Positions 6,233 through 15,805 of a stretch of DNA of 28,373 nucleotides are shown one piece after another (within the stretch, counting starts at the first letter, position 1; every line of letters starts with the position of its first letter). A program made the position numbers and the translations under genes. Source of the DNA: a virus. The notes under the pieces were generated by a model. That model saw only the letters and a program-made list of their open reading frames with translations, searched no databases and was not told the DNA's origin. The stretch covers positions 1-28,373 of the IMG/VR virus record IMGVR_UViG_3300025120_000398, one strand, 5' to 3'.

Positions 6233-7972
6233 ATGGCAAAAGAAGTATTAGAAATGGAGGTTAAGTCCAATATAAAATCAGTAACTAAAGAAACAGATGC
6301 ACTTGGTAAAAGTATAGGTAAGGCTAGTAATGATACTAAAGATTTAGATAAAGGATTAGAAGCTACAGGAAAATCAGGAAGTAAAGGGTTTAAAGCAATA
6401 GGAACAGCAGTTAAAGGTTTTGGAACAGCGTTAAAAGCAGCAGGGATAGGCTTAATTGTAGCTTTATTTGTTACTCTTAAAGAAGCACTAGAAAGAAATC
6501 AAAAAGTAATGAATACTGTTAATACTATTATGAGTACAGTATCAACAACCTTTAATCAAGTTGCAGATGTTCTAACAGATGTTGTTAGTTGGGTAACACA
6601 ATCAACAGATAGATTTGATGGACTTGGTAAAGTAATGGGTGGAATTGGTACTCTTATTCTTACACCATTTAAAAACACATTTTTACAAATTAAATTAGCA
6701 GTTTTAGGTGTACAACTTGCTTGGGAACAAAGTTTTTTTGGTGGTAAAGGTGAAGATTTAGCAAGAATAAATGAATTACAAACTAGCATAATAGAAACAG
6801 GAAGTGCTATAAAACAAGTTGGGGTTGATGCTTTAAATGCAGGTAAAGATATAATAACTAATTTTGGAGATGCTGTTGGTGAGATAGGAGCTATGGGAAA
6901 AATCGCTTTTGATGGAATTAGTGACATAAGTATAAAAGCAAATATAGAATTAGCAAAGGCTACAACTGCTGCTCAAAATAGCTCTAAATTAGCAGAAGCA
7001 GCAATACAAGGTTTAATTGAAAAGAATGACAAATTAGCCGAAACTCAAAGACAAATTAGAGATGATGAAACCAAAACTTTTGCTGAAAGAATAGAAGCTA
7101 ATAACGAATTAAATAATATTTTAGATAAACAAGAACAAGAGATGCTAAAATTAGCAGATACTAGAGTTGCTTCAGCAGCACTAGAATTGTCTGCAAATAA
7201 AGAAAATGTAGATTTACAAGTTGCATATCAACAAACATTAAATGATAGAGCAGGAGTTGAAGCACAAATAGCAGGATTCAGAAGTGAGCAAATGACTAAT
7301 GAAGTTTCTTTAGATAAAGAATTATTAGAAATAAAAAACCAGTTAAGAGTTGAAGCCTTAGAAGGAATGGCAAGGGAGTTAGAAGAATTAAAAATTGGGT
7401 ATGATGCACAGGTTGAAATGGCAAGAAAATCAGGTGTTGATATAACTGAAATTACAGCACAATATGAAAAGGAGCAATCCAAAATAAAAATAGCAAATGC
7501 TAAGGCTACATCAGATAGTATTAAAACTATAGATGATAAATTAGCAGATACAAAAAAGAAAACGCTTGAGATGGGAGCAGCAGCAGCTATGAAAATTGCA
7601 GGAGAAGGTTCTGCTATAGGAAAGTCTGTAGCAGTAGCTATGGCTATTATGAATACAAAAGAAGCGGTTACTGCTGCTTTAGGTGCTAAACCTTACGGCC
7701 CTTGGAATATTGCTCAAGCAGTTGCTACTGGTATATTTGGAATGACACAAGTACAGGGAATATTATCTACACCAACTCCTGGTGGAGGTGGAGGTGGCTC
7801 AGCAGGAAGTATAGGTGCAGCTCCACAAACCCCTGCACCACAAATGACTTCAGGAGCTTTTGATTTGTCTGGTGGAGTAGCTCCAGATCCTGTCCAGGCT
7901 TTTGTAATTACAGATTCCATGACAAATTCTCAGAACCAGCTTGCTAACATAAGAAGAAGAGCAACAATCTAA
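6233..7972 (+). CDS. Tape measure protein
   Basis: A 579-residue, largely helical protein with an extended charged N-terminus, a hydrophobic segment at about 66-82 (TALKAAGIGLIVALFVT) and long coiled-coil-like stretches (about 235-440). A second hydrophobic region (about 450-510) ends in a proline/glycine linker with six consecutive glycines, and the basic tail is NIRRRATI, an ending I recognise from Bacteroidota-phage tape measures. Tape measures set tail length and can insert into the host membrane. At roughly 1.5 angstrom per residue, the length predicts a tail of about 85-90 nm. It lies after the fibre gene rather than before the tail tip, which is unusual. Confidence 0.85.
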   Translation: MAKEVLEMEVKSNIKSVTKETDALGKSIGKASNDTKDLDKGLEATGKSGSKGFKAIGTAVKGFGTALKAAGIGLIVALFVTLKEALERNQKVMNTVNTIMSTVSTTFNQVADVLTDVVSWVTQSTDRFDGLGKVMGGIGTLILTPFKNTFLQIKLAVLGVQLAWEQSFFGGKGEDLARINELQTSIIETGSAIKQVGVDALNAGKDIITNFGDAVGEIGAMGKIAFDGISDISIKANIELAKATTAAQNSSKLAEAAIQGLIEKNDKLAETQRQIRDDETKTFAERIEANNELNNILDKQEQEMLKLADTRVASAALELSANKENVDLQVAYQQTLNDRAGVEAQIAGFRSEQMTNEVSLDKELLEIKNQLRVEALEGMARELEELKIGYDAQVEMARKSGVDITEITAQYEKEQSKIKIANAKATSDSIKTIDDKLADTKKKTLEMGAAAAMKIAGEGSAIGKSVAVAMAIMNTKEAVTAALGAKPYGPWNIAQAVATGIFGMTQVQGILSTPTPGGGGGGSAGSIGAAPQTPAPQMTSGAFDLSGGVAPDPVQAFVITDSMTNSQNQLANIRRRATI

Positions 7973-7982
7973 AATCAAATAT
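7966..7982 (+). repeat. Intergenic repeat AATCTAAAATCAAATA, copy 1
   Basis: The sequence at the end of the tape measure gene and just after its stop matches two later gene boundaries (8528 and 9828), apart from one missing A. It is followed by a copy of the TTCTATTATATARTA element. Confidence 0.6.
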
Positions 7983-7993
7983 AACTAACAAAA

Positions 7994-8008
7994 TTCTATT
8001 ATATAATA
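7994..8008 (+). promoter_or_regulatory. Repeated late element TTCTATTATATAATA, copy 1 (putative late promoter)
   Basis: One of five near-identical 15-base elements, each located just before a block of late genes. Its core, TATTATATAATA, is a perfect 12-base inverted repeat. Here it ends directly at the ATG of the Cys-rich head gene (8008). Conservation in otherwise unconstrained A/T-rich gaps, and a copy directly behind a terminator at 12.2 kb, argue for a promoter. An operator or a translation signal is an alternative. Confidence 0.6.
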
Positions 8009-8529
8009 TGCCATGCGAAAAATGTGAAAACGGAAAAGTAAAATGGGGAAAGACTGGCTCTTGTAAGTACGATACAAAAGCAGATTGTGAATCAGATAAT
8101 AAAGATTACTATAAAAAAAATACTATGAAACCAACACCACTAGGAAAAAAGTCGTATGAAGAATACGAGAAAGAATTAAAGGAATTTAATTTAAGTAAAG
8201 TTGAAAAAATTGAGTTGGGGTTAATTGATGACCTAGTTAAAAAAAGTAAAAAATCACTAGATACTTTTAGCGGTATTAACGCTTCAGCAAGAAAAGCAGG
8301 GCAAATAATAGACAAAGCAGAAACTGAAGCAAAAAAATTAAGTAAAGTTCTTAATCAATTAGAAGATGATTGGGATAAAGTTTTTAAACAAGCCAAAGAA
8401 TTAGGAGTAACAATAGAAGGTAAAACTAGAGGTTTTGCAGTAGATGTTAGTGCTACAGCAAACACAGTTAGAAATGCAGCAAGTCAATTAGAAAAAGCGT
8501 CTTCTATTGTTTATGGTATTGAAGATTAA
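8008..8529 (+). CDS. Cys-rich N-terminal module plus helical head-assembly module
   Basis: A 173-residue protein in two parts. Residues 1-31 hold four cysteines (C3, C6, C19, C27) in a CEKCENGKVKWGKTGSC layout that may bind zinc. From Met40 a charged helical part contains EKIELGLIDDL (67-77) and AKELGV. The helical part is paralogous to the C-terminus of the next gene (protease) and to the whole of the 9462 gene. An internal ATG at 8125 (MKPT) could yield the helical part alone. It lies directly upstream of the head protease, so an internal head, scaffold or protease-substrate role is plausible. No enzyme signature. Confidence 0.65.
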   Translation: MPCEKCENGKVKWGKTGSCKYDTKADCESDNKDYYKKNTMKPTPLGKKSYEEYEKELKEFNLSKVEKIELGLIDDLVKKSKKSLDTFSGINASARKAGQIIDKAETEAKKLSKVLNQLEDDWDKVFKQAKELGVTIEGKTRGFAVDVSATANTVRNAASQLEKASSIVYGIED

Positions 8530-8543
8530 TCTAAAAATCAAAT
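8528..8543 (+). repeat. Intergenic repeat AATCTAAAAATCAAAT, copy 2
   Basis: Second copy of the boundary repeat, lying between the Cys-rich gene and the protease gene. It leads straight into the protease ATG and lacks the late-promoter element that follows copies 1 and 3. Confidence 0.6.
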
Positions 8544-9452
8544 ATGAATACAACTAAAATAGTAGAATTAGTAATAGCAGATGATAGTCAAGAACTAGCT
8601 ATTGACGCTATATCCCTCGTTCACAGCCCTGCAATAGAACAGGACTTTGTATTTTTTGGAAAAGAGAAAAACAACTTGACTTTTGCTAAGGTAGATGAAG
8701 AAAAGCGTATGTTAGTTTCTCCTGCTTTAATTCCTAATAAGCAAATCTTTAGATATGACCCTAATACTGATTCAGACTACTATGTTTATTTTAGTCCTGA
8801 AACAGTACGTAAGGCTTCTGAGTTATATTTAAAACATAACAACCACCACAAGGCTACTCACGAACATTCTGAGAGAGTTTCAGGAGTTTTAACTGTAGAG
8901 AGTTGGATTAAGGAAGGAGATAGCGACAAGTCAAAATTATACGGATTTGATTTACCGAATGGTACTTGGTTCGTAAAAATGAAAATAGAAAATGATGACC
9001 TGTGGCAAAAGATTAAAGCAGGAGAATTAAAAGGCTTATCAATAGAAGGTTACTTCACATCAAAATTTGAAAAAATGCAAAAGAAAGAACCAACAACAGA
9101 AGAAGTAAGAACTGCACTAAAAGAATTGTTAAGTGTTCAGAAGGTAGAGTTGGGAATGGTAGATGATTTAGTTAAGGACGCTAAAACTTTAAGTTCTAAA
9201 TTTGAAAAAGCAGTAAAAAACAATATGGCTATTGCAAAGCTAGTTAATGAAAATTTTAAAGAAATGGGTAGTGTTGTAAAAGCAGCTAAAAAAGGATATG
9301 GGTTTGTTGCTACTATTGATAAGCAATTTAAAGAGTTAGGGGTAAAGCCAACAAAAGAATATAAAAAAGCAAGTCAAGAAATTTATGATATAGCTGAAGG
9401 TAGTGGAGAGCAAATGTTTAAAGACTTAGCAAAATTTAAAGGATTACTATAA
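8544..9452 (+). CDS. XkdF-like prohead serine protease with C-terminal helical module
   Basis: Residues 1-178 resemble the XkdF family of putative phage serine proteases (Peptidase_S78_2). They contain VSPALIPNKQIFR (58-70), YYVYFSPETV (79-88), a candidate catalytic histidine in KATHEHSERVSG (H106 or H108) and a candidate serine in GLSIEGYF (S166). Such enzymes mature the prohead by cutting scaffold and capsid proteins. Residues about 184-302 are a charged helical extension, starting PTTEEVRTALKELL and carrying QKVELGMVDDL (199-209), that is paralogous to both flanking genes. The protease is therefore fused to a module that also exists as separate proteins, which may target it into the prohead core. 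Confidence 0.8.
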   Translation: MNTTKIVELVIADDSQELAIDAISLVHSPAIEQDFVFFGKEKNNLTFAKVDEEKRMLVSPALIPNKQIFRYDPNTDSDYYVYFSPETVRKASELYLKHNNHHKATHEHSERVSGVLTVESWIKEGDSDKSKLYGFDLPNGTWFVKMKIENDDLWQKIKAGELKGLSIEGYFTSKFEKMQKKEPTTEEVRTALKELLSVQKVELGMVDDLVKDAKTLSSKFEKAVKNNMAIAKLVNENFKEMGSVVKAAKKGYGFVATIDKQFKELGVKPTKEYKKASQEIYDIAEGSGEQMFKDLAKFKGLL

Positions 9453-9461
9453 AAATATAAT

Positions 9462-9827
9462 ATGAAACCAACAACAGAACAAATACTAAGTGCTTTAAAT
9501 GAAATGATACAAAGCAAAACTGAACTTAAGTCTGAAAAGGTTGAGTTGGCTTTAATAGATGATATTGAAAAATTATTAGATAAAGGATTAGCAGAAAAAA
9601 GAAAAAGTGAAAAGATAATAAGAAAAGCTGCTGATGAATTAAGAGAAGGTAGTCAGTTTTTAGCAGATGCAGCAAGTAAAGCACAAAAAGCAGTAAAAGC
9701 AGCAAAAGAATTAGGTGCTAAAGAAGCAGTTACTCTTTTTACAGTTAGATTAAAAGAAGCACAAGATTTTCAAGATGATATGTTAAAAGCATCTAATAAA
9801 GTTTTAGCAGCAATAGATATACTATAA
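9462..9827 (+). CDS. Stand-alone helical head-assembly module protein
   Basis: A 121-residue, lysine- and alanine-rich, fully helical protein. It consists only of the module found fused in the two preceding genes: MKPTTEQILSALNEM at the start, EKVELALIDDI (25-35), then a heptad-like stretch with AKAAKELGAKEA (78-89). No membrane segment or enzyme motif. The position between protease and acidic scaffold-like gene suggests an internal core or scaffolding component. I infer a tandem duplication because the intergenic sequence is shared as well. Confidence 0.65.
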   Translation: MKPTTEQILSALNEMIQSKTELKSEKVELALIDDIEKLLDKGLAEKRKSEKIIRKAADELREGSQFLADAASKAQKAVKAAKELGAKEAVTLFTVRLKEAQDFQDDMLKASNKVLAAIDIL

Positions 9828-9844
9828 AATCTAAAAATCAAATA
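9828..9844 (+). repeat. Intergenic repeat AATCTAAAAATCAAATA, copy 3
   Basis: Third copy of the boundary repeat, immediately after the helical-module gene. Together with the following TAACTATTCTATTATATAATA it aligns with the region 7966-8008 over about 43 bases with a few indels. Confidence 0.6.
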
Positions 9845-9856
9845 AATAAATAACTA

Positions 9857-9871
9857 TTCTATTATATAATA
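9857..9871 (+). promoter_or_regulatory. Repeated late element TTCTATTATATAATA, copy 2 (putative late promoter)
   Basis: Identical to the copies at 7994 and 25481. It lies 41 bases before the ATG of the scaffold-like gene, whereas the other copies are 14-17 bases from a start. This larger distance argues against a simple ribosome-binding role and fits a promoter for the scaffold and capsid genes. Confidence 0.6.
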
Positions 9872-9897
9872 CAAACTTACTATAAATAAAAATTACT

Positions 9898-10569
9898 ATG
9901 GATTTAAAAGAAAAAATATTAGTTGCTTTAGGACTTGATACTGAAGTTAAATTAGGTTGGCAAGGCAAATCAGAAGATGGTACAATTTTTGTATCTACTG
10001 CTGAAGAATTAGAAAGCGGTGTCGATATAAGCGTACTTACCGAAGATGGCACGACAATTTTATTGCCCGTAGGAACTTATAAGACTGATGATGGTGTTTC
10101 TTTCAGAGTAGAAGAAGAAGGTGTTGTTTCTGAAGTTATGGAAAGCGAAACAGAAGAAGAAGATACTACTGAAGAGGTTGAAGCTGCTGAAGAATTAGCT
10201 GAAGAAGCTGATGTAGCTGATTGGTCTGGAATGGAAAAAAGGATCGAGAATCTAGAAATAGCGGTTGCAAAATTAAAAGAAGGCAAAGTAGGTGGTGATG
10301 ATGAGGTTGAAGAAATGACTGAAGAAGTTGTTGAACCACGTTCTACAAGCCCTAAAACTATTACAACAAAAGAAGTAGTAGAATTTTCAGTTGAAGATTT
10401 AAAAGCTGAAAACAAAAAATTAAAAGAAGAATTAGCTGCTAGTCCTGCTGAAACTCCTTTAAACACAAATAAATTTAGTTCTGAAAGTAATCAAGTTGCT
10501 TTATCTAAAAAAGAACTATCTAAAATGACTAGAAGAGAAAAATACTTATACAATTTATACAATAATTAA
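9898..10569 (+). CDS. Acidic scaffolding-like protein
   Basis: A 223-residue protein directly upstream of the major capsid gene. The N-terminal 75 residues look like a small beta domain (EDGTTILLPVGTY). Then comes a very acidic E/D-rich stretch (about 85-150) with a helix (MEKRIENLEIAVAKLKEG), followed by a coiled-coil-like segment (VEDLKAENKKLKEELAAS). The C-terminus is basic (KMTRREKYLYNLYNN). This acidic middle and basic helical end, just before the capsid protein, is the classic scaffold architecture, where the basic tail binds coat protein. A search is needed for the family name; the call rests on composition and position. Confidence 0.65.
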   Translation: MDLKEKILVALGLDTEVKLGWQGKSEDGTIFVSTAEELESGVDISVLTEDGTTILLPVGTYKTDDGVSFRVEEEGVVSEVMESETEEEDTTEEVEAAEELAEEADVADWSGMEKRIENLEIAVAKLKEGKVGGDDEVEEMTEEVVEPRSTSPKTITTKEVVEFSVEDLKAENKKLKEELAASPAETPLNTNKFSSESNQVALSKKELSKMTRREKYLYNLYNN

Positions 10570-10583
10570 AAAAACAAAAAATT

Positions 10584-11501
10584 ATGGCTTTAGCAGTAAC
10601 TAGTAACTATGAAGGGAAGGCGGCAGGATTTTACATATCCCAAGCACTTCGTCAAGCAACTTCAATGGAGTACTTGACAATGATAGAAAATATAAAATTT
10701 AAAAGTAACATACAGAAAATGGATGCTGCTGCAATGGTGCAGGATGCTACGTGTAATGTAAACTTAGCAGGAACACTTACGATGACCGAGGCGGTTCTTA
10801 CGCCAAAAAATCTAATGGTTCAGAGTGATTTATGCGCAAAAACTTTGCTTTCCAGTTGGGAAGCTTTACAGATGAGAGCAGGAGCAGGAGCACCACCACC
10901 AGCATCTTTTGATGACTATGTAATTTCTTACATTGGTGAAGTAATTGCAGACTCTACAGAAAATTCTATTTGGTTAGGAAATGACGCAACAGCAGGACAA
11001 TTTACAGGATTCGTAACAGGAGGTGCGGTAGGTAGATTAGTTGCAGATGCTACAGTAGTTGATGTGGCTAATGTAGGTGGTGCAGGTACAGCTTTTGCAG
11101 CAGGTAACATTATTGAAAACTTACAAAATTGTACAGCAGCTATTCCTACAGCAGTTTATACAAAAGAAGATTTATACATATATATGAGTCCAAAGTCTTA
11201 CAGACTATACATCTCAGCAATATCTACTTTAGGATATGTAAATGCTTACTCTATGAATGGAGATTATGATGCAGTATTTGAAGGAATCAAAATTGCAGTT
11301 TGTACAGGAATGTCAAATGATGTTTTAGTAGCAGCAGAAAAGTCTAATTTATTTTTTGGTACGGATCTTTTATCGGACAGCGTAACTTTAAATTTGCTTG
11401 ATTTATCACAAATCGATGGAAGCTCAAATATTCGTTTATTGGCTCGTTACTCAGGTGGAACACAAGTTGGTATTGGTGCTGATTGCGTACTTGTATCATA
11501 A
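10584..11501 (+). CDS. Major capsid protein
   Basis: A 305-residue protein with the length and composition of an HK97-fold coat protein, following protease and scaffold genes. It begins MALAVTSNYEGKAAGFYISQ, has an alpha-rich region, and ends in a beta-rich C-terminus. Codon and leader quality look strong: an A-rich leader and no overlap with neighbours. A hairpin follows the gene, fitting a highly expressed, separately bounded transcript. I recognise the overall pattern from flavobacterial phages, but the HK97 fold is inferred rather than visible as a motif. Confidence 0.8.
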   Translation: MALAVTSNYEGKAAGFYISQALRQATSMEYLTMIENIKFKSNIQKMDAAAMVQDATCNVNLAGTLTMTEAVLTPKNLMVQSDLCAKTLLSSWEALQMRAGAGAPPPASFDDYVISYIGEVIADSTENSIWLGNDATAGQFTGFVTGGAVGRLVADATVVDVANVGGAGTAFAAGNIIENLQNCTAAIPTAVYTKEDLYIYMSPKSYRLYISAISTLGYVNAYSMNGDYDAVFEGIKIAVCTGMSNDVLVAAEKSNLFFGTDLLSDSVTLNLLDLSQIDGSSNIRLLARYSGGTQVGIGADCVLVS

Positions 11502-13813: not shown

Positions 13814-15805
13814 ATGAAAGATTCACTTATTAATATCAATCTTGAAACAAGTACCGCTCCAGTAGTAGCTGAAGTACGTGGTAAAGATTGGATAGAATAC
13901 GGAGATGCTAATGGAGAATGGAGAAACTTATATCCACAATTTCTTATAGACTTATACTATTCAAGTAGTATAACGGCTGCCATTATAAACGCAACAGCAG
14001 AAATGATTTCTGGAAAAGATATTATTATTGAAGATGAAGAAGATAGAGATTTAGAAGCTAGAGTAAGACTTCAGCATTTTTTAGATAGAGCAAATTCAAA
14101 TGAAACACTTCATGAAGTTTTAGTTAAGGCTTCTTTTGACTTTAAATTGCAAGGTGCTTTTGCTCTTAATATTGTATGGTCAAAAGATAGAACACAAATA
14201 TCAGAAATTTACCATGTTGATGTTTCTAAAATTAGATGTGCAAAGCCTGATGAATTTGGAAAAACTAAAGGATTTTATGTGAGTTCTGATTGGAAAAATA
14301 CGAGAACAAATAAACCTTATTATGTTCCTGCTTTTAATTCTAATGATAGAACTTCAGCAAATCAAATAATGTACTCAGGACTTTACAGTCCAAATATGAA
14401 TAGCTATTATACTCCAGATTACGTGAGTTGTAATAACTGGGCTTTAATTGATTCAAGAGTTTCTGAATTTCATCTTAATAATATTAGTTCTGGTTTTTCA
14501 GGTAGCTTTATGGTCAATTTTTCAAATGGCATTCCAACTGCTGAAGAACGTAACCAGATAGAACAAAGTTTAGCTGCTAAATTCCAAGGGCAAGATAATG
14601 CTGGAAAGCTAATTTTAACCTTCTCAGACGATAAAACAAGAACACCAGAAATAACACCAATAAGTCCTTCAGATTTGGACAAACAATTTTTAGCACTCCA
14701 AGAATTACTCACTTCTAACATCTGTTCAGGACACAGAATTACGAGCAAAACTTTAATGGGATTGGATTCTGGTAATGGATTTTCAAGCAATGCTGACGAA
14801 CTTAATTCTGCTGCTAATTTTTATCATAACACAGTAATTGTTGGATTCCAGAATCAAATATTGAAAGTGTTACACAAAATATTTAAAGTAAACAATATGG
14901 ATATGCCTGTACAGTTTGTTCAGCTTAAACCTATCACTACTAAATTTACAAATCAAGATCTTGCAGGTGTTTTAACTTCTGATGAAATACGTGAAGAAAT
15001 GGGCTACGAGCCTTTAGATGTAGATGTTGAAGTTAGAGAGGACTTTAGTAAAGTTGGTATGATAGATGGAAAACCTGTTTTTAGCACAATAGAAGAAGCT
15101 GAAGCTCATGCAAAGACTTTAGGGTGTGAAGGGTGGCATACGCATCAATACGAAGGTAGAGCTGCTTATATGGCTTGTAAAGACCATTCAGAAGCTACAG
15201 AGCTTTCTAGCTTTATAGAAAAATTTGGTGAAGACATAAACCAAGAATGGGAATTAGTAGAAGAAGAAGTAGTAGATGGCGAACACCAAGATTTTGATTT
15301 TGAAAAAACATTAAATGAAATAGCTAATGAAAAAACAGAGTTAGCTTCTATGCCTAAAGCAATACCTAGTAGAAAATCTGAACAAGATGGAATATCTAAA
15401 AAGACTTATGATTATTTTAGAGTAAGATATGTTTATTCAAAAGATAATTTCTTAACTAACAAATCAGGAACTAGCAGGAATTTTTGTAAGAAAATGGAGT
15501 CAGCTAAAAAAATGTACAGAAAAGAAGATATTGTAAGAACAAAAAGCAATAGTGTAAATCCGGGATTCGGACATAATGGCAAAGATTACAATTTATTTCT
15601 CTATAAAGGAGGACCTCAATGTTTCCATTTTTGGAGTAGAAGAATTTTTAAAACAGTAATTGGAGAATCTAGAACTACAAAGATAGAAGATGCTGATTTG
15701 ATTGGATATACTAAGGCTAAGTCAGAAGGTTTTACTGCTAAAAAGAATGATAAATTAGTAGCAATACCACCAAGAAAAATGAAAAATAACGGATATTATA
15801 ATTAA
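13814..15805 (+). CDS. Portal protein with unusual C-terminal extension
   Basis: Residues about 15-410 form a portal-like protein: RNLYPQFLIDLYYSSSITAAI (38-58), a wing/stem region with HRITSKTLMG (307-316) and the helical LKVLHKIFKV (350-359), then the crown-like end EEMGYEPLD. The portal is the dodecameric DNA gate at the capsid vertex, and terminase docks on it. Residues 411-663 are extra: a GKPVFSTIEEAEAHAKTLGC-type segment with Cys/His residues (419-458), an acidic linker, and a basic module (532-613) with FCKKMESAKKMYRKEDI and FLYKGGPQCFHFWSRR. This module is known from head-associated proteins of Bacteroidota phages. The protein may combine portal and minor-head functions. Confidence 0.8.
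   Translation: MKDSLININLETSTAPVVAEVRGKDWIEYGDANGEWRNLYPQFLIDLYYSSSITAAIINATAEMISGKDIIIEDEEDRDLEARVRLQHFLDRANSNETLHEVLVKASFDFKLQGAFALNIVWSKDRTQISEIYHVDVSKIRCAKPDEFGKTKGFYVSSDWKNTRTNKPYYVPAFNSNDRTSANQIMYSGLYSPNMNSYYTPDYVSCNNWALIDSRVSEFHLNNISSGFSGSFMVNFSNGIPTAEERNQIEQSLAAKFQGQDNAGKLILTFSDDKTRTPEITPISPSDLDKQFLALQELLTSNICSGHRITSKTLMGLDSGNGFSSNADELNSAANFYHNTVIVGFQNQILKVLHKIFKVNNMDMPVQFVQLKPITTKFTNQDLAGVLTSDEIREEMGYEPLDVDVEVREDFSKVGMIDGKPVFSTIEEAEAHAKTLGCEGWHTHQYEGRAAYMACKDHSEATELSSFIEKFGEDINQEWELVEEEVVDGEHQDFDFEKTLNEIANEKTELASMPKAIPSRKSEQDGISKKTYDYFRVRYVYSKDNFLTNKSGTSRNFCKKMESAKKMYRKEDIVRTKSNSVNPGFGHNGKDYNLFLYKGGPQCFHFWSRRIFKTVIGESRTTKIEDADLIGYTKAKSEGFTAKKNDKLVAIPPRKMKNNGYYN

Follow-up and report, generated by a model that had tools for sequence, protein, structure and literature searches.

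The window, that is, the whole 28.4-kb stretch of viral DNA that was analysed, is a siphophage-like virus record with tail, head and replication genes. Three successive genes lie between its tape measure and scaffold genes. The N-terminal part of the second encodes a prohead protease domain, with residues 46-170 matching PF14550 (Peptidase_S78_2) at E 3e-18 and 66.5 bits against a cut-off of 24. The nearest isolated relatives of this protease that were found are those of the Nonlabens phages P12024L/S, at 40% identity. Around the protease there are three slots, each of which can hold a short leader followed by a helical hairpin, here called a cassette: slot A lies between a Cys module and the protease, slot B is the protease C-terminus, and slot C comprises stand-alone genes between the protease and the scaffold. 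The features of the window are listed below, together with the related loci (L numbers) that hold cassettes of the same type in other slots.

6233-7972: tape measure, directly before gene 1 in the gene order
8008-8529, plus strand: gene 1, Cys module with slot A leader and slot A cassette
8008-8121, plus strand: gene 1 Cys module (CxxC..C..C), which in 52 complete relatives forms the protease's own N-terminus
8125-8217, plus strand: slot A leader (MKPTPLGKKSYEEYEKELKEFNLSKVE) and core KIEL
8218-8526, plus strand: slot A cassette, type 3 of the clustering; same type in slot B of L102, L106 and L108 and in slot C of L104 and L105
8544-9452, plus strand: gene 2, XkdF-like protease with slot B leader and slot B cassette
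8544-9056, plus strand: prohead protease domain, Peptidase_S78_2 / XkdF-like (Pfam E 3e-18; phrog_24921 E 7e-40)
9051-9152, plus strand: slot B leader (..KKEPTTEEVRTALKELLSVQ) and core KVEL; helix 185-196 in the gene 2 model
9153-9449, plus strand: slot B cassette, type 1, hairpin; same type in slot C of L013, L057 and L260
9462-9827, plus strand: gene 3, slot C leader and slot C cassette
9462-9548, plus strand: slot C leader (MKPTTEQILSALNEMIQSKTELKSE) and core KVEL; low-confidence helix 5-18, then flexible, with pLDDT below 50 at 22-26
9549-9824, plus strand: slot C cassette, type 2, helical hairpin; same type fused to the protease in L020, L021 and L024 and in slot A of L045
9898-10569, plus strand: scaffold gene, after gene 3
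9898-9960, plus strand: leader-like N-terminus of the scaffold gene (MDLKEKILVALGLDTEVKLGW), with a [V/I]-x-[L/M] pattern that fits the cassette core
9961-10566, plus strand: acidic scaffold, equivalent to the C-terminal half of the fused protease and scaffold in P12024L (weak match to phrog_24921)
10584-11501: major capsid candidate, after the scaffold gene

A short intergenic sequence rich in A and T (aaaatcaaat.. and attctattatataat) is repeated at 7970-8007, 8529-8543 and 9825-9871. It precedes gene 1, the scaffold gene and, in part, the protease, is kept in L001 and other relatives, and is possibly a shared promoter or ribosome-binding element. Further downstream, the portal gene (13814-15805) has extra C-terminal sequence with a sub-threshold DUF3721-like repeat. 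The same extra sequence holds the leader-like stretch LNEIANEKTELASMP, which was considered as a further leader and rejected; the family profile described below has no match there even at E 10.

The first-pass annotation had proposed that one helical module is used three times here, in a Cys-rich fusion, in a protease fusion and on its own, and all of the motifs that it quoted are found where it placed them. Gene 1 contains, in order, MKPTPLGKKS..EKIELGLIDDL..QAKELGV; gene 2, C-terminal to the Peptidase_S78_2/XkdF domain, contains EPTTEE..QKVELGMVDDL..QFKELGV; and gene 3 contains MKPTTEQ..EKVELALIDDI..AAKELGA. The plan of the module is a leader helix, then the K-V-E-L core, then a two-helix hairpin with the 'KELG' motif as its turn.

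Comparing the three helical parts as type profiles gave E 1.3e-6 between the slot A and slot B cassettes and E 1.2e-6 between A and C, but only E 0.045 between B and C. Reversed and shuffled decoys also score. Because lysine-rich helices make decoys score, E-values from iterated profiles are not trustworthy by themselves, and the iterated searches, which from each window cassette reach all 235 cassettes of the collection described below but give decoys E-values down to about 1e-6, were dropped as proof of homology. With uneven pairwise comparisons and scoring decoys, the case for homology therefore rests on the family. A family profile of 60 members matches exactly three places in the window (E 1e-34, 6e-31 and 3e-30), and searching the window up to E 10 gave no further copies. 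In the alignment of these 60 diverse members, the Leu of the KVEL core and the Leu-Gly of KELG do not vary. As judged from the sequences, the similarity of the three helical parts is greater than chance, though the direct pairwise evidence is uneven; three independent lines, namely the family profile, the exchange of cassettes and the structural models, settle the proposal of one module with three uses.

The structure of gene 3 was predicted by AlphaFold with a mean pLDDT of 86.5 (60 sequences). The model has a leader helix (5-18) at low confidence, a flexible stretch (22-26, pLDDT below 50) adjoining the KVEL core, and then the hairpin, in which a long helix (29-83) turns at Leu84-Gly85 into the return helix (87-120). 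The model of the whole of gene 2 is unreliable over the protease domain (mean pLDDT 48.7), so the comparison was confined to its tail, in which helices 185-196 and 204-265 are followed, after the Leu-Gly turn, by helices 271-284 and 287-301. Both models thus give the same predicted fold, in which a flexible KVEL linker joins the leader helix to a long helix and the Leu-Gly turn connects this to the return helix, and from this matching order of elements the motif after the core is taken to be the turn of a helical hairpin. Structure searches returned generic hairpins only (a lengthened ROP, CHMP4B and the Rad50 hook), with no structural homologue at E <= 0.001 in the PDB or among viral models. 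Sequence matches in the PDB were chance coiled-coil matches, and low-E PHROG matches (endolysin, tape measure) were scattered coiled-coil matches as well.

Five scans of viral contigs gave 196 distinct protease-bearing loci, which were picked by similarity to a few queries, so that counts among them are not population frequencies; many are fragments, and one virus may be represented by more than one contig. The locus was called complete when the whole stretch from upstream of the protease through the scaffold was present, which was the case for 147 of the 196. The 196 loci hold 235 cassettes of 115 types at 60% identity, a number that depends on this threshold and on single linkage. There are 55 types with at least two members, and 31 of these 55 occur in more than one slot. 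The remaining 60 of the 115 are singletons and the Chao1 estimate is about 180, so the pool must be larger than the sample. Around the head protease gene there can be as many as four leaders, each with a swappable hairpin. All three cassettes of the window occur in other slots in other phages; that of gene 3, for example, shares 98% identity with the tail of the L021/L083 protease. Hairpins are hypervariable and are swapped as cassettes between positions and phages. Avoidance of two equal cassettes within one phage was considered, and is not significant (0 of 139 pairs of the same type, 1.6 expected, P 0.2).

The point of exchange is visible in the alignments. When cassettes of the same type are compared between slot A and slot B or C, identity in the leader is mostly 0-0.4 and rises to 0.5-0.9 from the four core residues on. 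When different types are compared that both sit in slot A, their leaders are about 0.2-0.65 identical, and identity is at background (~0.1) from the first residue past the core. By these comparisons, the swap junctions map to the KVEL core. In DNA comparisons, the L013 protease aligns with window 8541-9172, while the gene 2 tail sits in the stand-alone gene of L013: window 9141-9462, the slot B cassette, matches slot C of that locus at 90% DNA identity, and window 9449-9563, the slot C leader, matches its slot C leader at 94%. In L020 the protease is joined without interruption to the slot C unit of the window, followed by the scaffold (window 9466-11377), an arrangement that looks as expected from a deletion between the two leader copies, which have the string AACCAACAACAGAA in common. 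The repeated leader thus supplies homology for gain, loss and exchange of units.

Exchange is fast. In a count free of duplicate-removal bias, the slot B type is shared in 3 of 26 pairs whose proteases are 95-99% identical in DNA and in 18 of 1178 pairs below 80%. Median dN/dS within cassette types is 0.22; the protease has 0.07 and the scaffold 0.25. Purifying selection within types together with the fast turnover means that the hairpins are functional, yet are swapped far faster than their neighbours diverge.

Comparison with complete relatives suggests where the other parts of the locus came from. The Cys-rich fusion described in the first-pass annotation is present in gene 1, but its Cys module is better explained as the ancestral N-terminus of the protease, split off from it. 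In L014, L023, L144, L234 and L172, MPCEKC..CE..NKDYY reads directly into the protease start, and throughout the 52 complete regions in which the Cys module is the protease N-terminus, the protease ends in a leader stub (e.g. ..NEEILSALNEIIKENQTK) with no cassette. The point at which the Cys module of gene 1 passes into the slot A unit is exactly that at which the fused form passes into the protease start. The best reading of genes 1 and 2 is that a single ancestral gene was probably split by an inserted leader-hairpin-stop-start unit.

The leader has its own likely source. In P12024L the protease and scaffold are in one gene, with the joint KPTKFEQFMQLF..AAVKLGEV, and the scaffold start in the window's family, MDLKEKILVALGL..EVKLGW, resembles the slot C leader, MKPTTEQILSALNE..KVELA. 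These resemblances suggest that the leader is a duplicate of the old protease-scaffold joint. The fusions of P12024L and phrog_24921 have, as here, an XkdF-like protease domain, a leader-like joint and the scaffold C-terminal part; unlike P12024L, the window's family has separate protease and scaffold genes and hairpin cassettes behind the protease. The hairpins have no match to the scaffold family phrog_24921, and only the leader resembles the scaffold N-terminus.

Slots A, B and C hold no hairpin in 59 of the 147 complete regions, where the protease stops right after the leader and the protease, scaffold and capsid genes are the same. The cassette is therefore accessory, and may be dispensable for growth. 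Searches over the full length of 19 hairpin-less contigs matched no more of the profile than its leader part (positions 1-28), and this in the protease; the exceptions were weak matches within one or two long ORFs of tape-measure size.

The same hairpin is found at further positions in distant phages whose capsid and scaffold sequences are different (L091:2002-2349, L095:4965-5312, L088:5004-5868 and L093:322-687). In L091 and L095 its slot is a new one, flanked by the head-tail adaptor and portal genes, and in L088 it occurs twice near the protease. Nearly every leader precedes the same hairpin fold; only L172 (5001-5852) and L285 differ, with a short domain ending in YPWDECI..KICGYIK.KYG after the protease leader in place of the hairpin. 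Four loci lie in metagenome-assembled genomes (MAGs) with implausible host labels, and no host was inferred from them. L322 and L323 are two protease relatives on one 36-kb contig (PAPR01000004.1) of a MAG labelled Pseudooceanicola, L324 is also among the MAG loci, and relatives are found on another Pseudooceanicola-MAG contig and once in a MAG labelled Euryarchaeota. It looks as if phage contigs had been binned into these MAGs.

The cassettes have a median length of 100 aa and a median pI of 9.1 (IQR 7.3-9.4), against a pI of 4.2 for the scaffold. In the window, the slot B cassette has a pI of 9.3, and those of slots A (8.1) and C (8.2) are only mildly basic. There is no Cys in 25,038 cassette residues. 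This absence does not discriminate, because the tape measure (0 in 52,038 residues, 101 proteins of the group) and the scaffold (3 in 38,934) also have none or nearly none; the major capsid proteins have 515 in 48,668 residues (173 proteins). At the four core positions, the 235 cassettes have [KR] in 234, [VI] in 217, [ED] in 223 and [LF] in all 235, and the next residue is Gly, Ala or Ser in 199 of the 235. The T4 and phiKZ proteases cleave after Glu (PMC9026906), and a candidate cut by the prohead protease would lie within or next to K-V-E-L, in the predicted flexible linker. The scaffold's own core has no Glu, so a determinant that it shares with the cassettes could only be [V/I]-x-[L/M].

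The first-pass annotation had placed the module in the prohead core, where it would co-assemble the three proteins and deliver the protease as a minor subunit of the scaffold. The head-core context holds, in that leader and N-terminus are alike when the neighbouring scaffold is compared, and P12024L has its protease and scaffold fused via such a leader. The roles given to the hairpin itself do not: hairpins diverge too far between slots and phages to make fixed homotypic pairing likely, and with 59 of the 147 complete regions lacking it, the hairpin is not required to deliver the protease. The leader, which is found in the protease, in the stand-alone genes and in the scaffold, is by its distribution the better candidate for a docking signal.

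The T4 internal proteins offer a model for the rest. They are basic, carry a short targeting propeptide that is cut by the prohead protease, are mostly dispensable and are ejected into the host (PMC9026906, PMC3012670); among T-even phages they are diverse and the leader alone is conserved (PMC3012670, PMC9026906). T4 IPI, IPII and IPIII with their CTS are, like the cassettes, small, mostly basic, diverse, headed by a short conserved N-terminal leader and encoded or expressed with head genes. The family studied here likewise has a conserved short leader before divergent mature parts, and the median cassette (100 aa, pI 9.1) agrees with a basic mature protein of about 8-20 kDa. There are also differences. 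IPI has an alpha/beta fold (PMC9026906, PMC3012670), whereas the cassettes are predicted two-helix hairpins with no PDB match at E <= 0.001, and nearly all copies have this one fold. The cassettes move among three gene contexts, one of them fused to the prohead protease. Cutting, packaging and ejection, which the T4 proteins undergo, are predictions for the cassettes. Giant-phage head paralogs (SPN3US, phiKZ inner-body proteins) are likened here by description, not by sequence: these are paralogous head proteins whose number varies between phages, as here, and some of their propeptides are cut by the prohead protease (PMC5694885). The phages and proteins concerned are much larger, and the part of that source drawn on here describes no slot exchange or protease fusion (PMC5694885).

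On the T4 analogy, the leader would be a short helix derived from, or mimicking, the protease-scaffold joint, and would dock the protein to which it belongs in the prohead core. What follows K-V-E-L, the hairpin, would be an accessory internal head protein. The prohead protease would probably cut it from its leader at KVEL or close by, after which it would enter the head along with the DNA and reach the host cell as T4 IPI-III do, which have a capsid-targeting sequence in front. Hairpins would move among slots A, B and C by recombination between the leader repeats and the core codons common to the units, and a contest with hosts may be the simplest explanation of so fast-changing a repertoire. 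That the hairpins are leader-targeted, Cys-free, mostly basic accessory internal head proteins of the T4 kind is, in our judgement, an evenly balanced proposition. A fuller version is tentative, a real possibility that falls short of probable: siphophage heads would bear one to four hairpins, one riding on the protease, as combinatorial virion-borne effectors against changing host defences, drawn from a shared pool of well over 100 types, addressed by a common scaffold-derived signal and reshuffled by leader-to-leader recombination.

The hairpins may instead be structural, a reading close to that of the first-pass annotation. As accessory scaffold subunits, they would co-assemble with scaffold and protease in the prohead core and leave or be degraded at maturation, their diversity being drift under weak constraint plus recombination. 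The location between protease and scaffold, the leader common to the scaffold, a dN/dS near the scaffold's (0.22 vs 0.25) and the lack of Cys, as in the scaffold, all agree with this, as does the single fold in nearly all cassettes; one constant fold behind nearly all leaders fits a structural role too and counts against cargo, since T4 internal proteins differ in fold. However, 59 of the 147 complete relatives do without hairpins while having the same protease, scaffold and capsid genes, exchange is much faster than in the neighbouring genes, the hairpins are basic and the scaffold acidic, and unrelated types sit side by side within a phage (with 0 of 139 same-type pairs not significant, P 0.2). 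We regard this structural role as somewhat unlikely, and favour internal cargo over it because the part after the leader is accessory, hypervariable, mostly basic and Cys-free, like the T4 internal proteins. Regulation of the protease or of core assembly would be suggested by the copy carried covalently on the protease, the others encoded beside it, and the C-terminal processing of T4 gp21 and phiKZ gp175 (PMC9026906): the hairpin would be a propeptide or inhibitor that silences the protease or spaces it in the core, with the stand-alone and Cys-linked copies acting in trans. Many proteases have no hairpin at all, though, and near-identical ones carry unrelated hairpins, which a specific inhibitor could not tolerate, making this role improbable. 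It is still harder to regard the hairpins as near-neutral passengers of leader repeats that act as recombination hot spots. Repeated leaders and shared core DNA do lie at the junctions, but purifying selection within types (median dN/dS 0.22), open frames everywhere, the core Leu and turn Leu-Gly invariant across 60 diverse members, and the presence of the hairpin in distantly related phages make a by-product without dedicated function very improbable.

No description of such a locus was found in a literature search, with subscription papers largely outside its scope. The cassettes, found in a widespread group of mostly marine phages, show that the head-assembly operon of an abundant environmental phage group harbours a large repertoire of rapidly exchanged small proteins, with a sharply defined signal and point of exchange. 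Should the hairpins be ejected, the leader would serve as a ready-made targeting tag for packing proteins into the heads of siphophages, and the pool would supply candidate anti-defence proteins; should they be structural, they would show how a prohead core tolerates extreme diversity. Either way, they account for a confusing run of neighbouring hypothetical genes.
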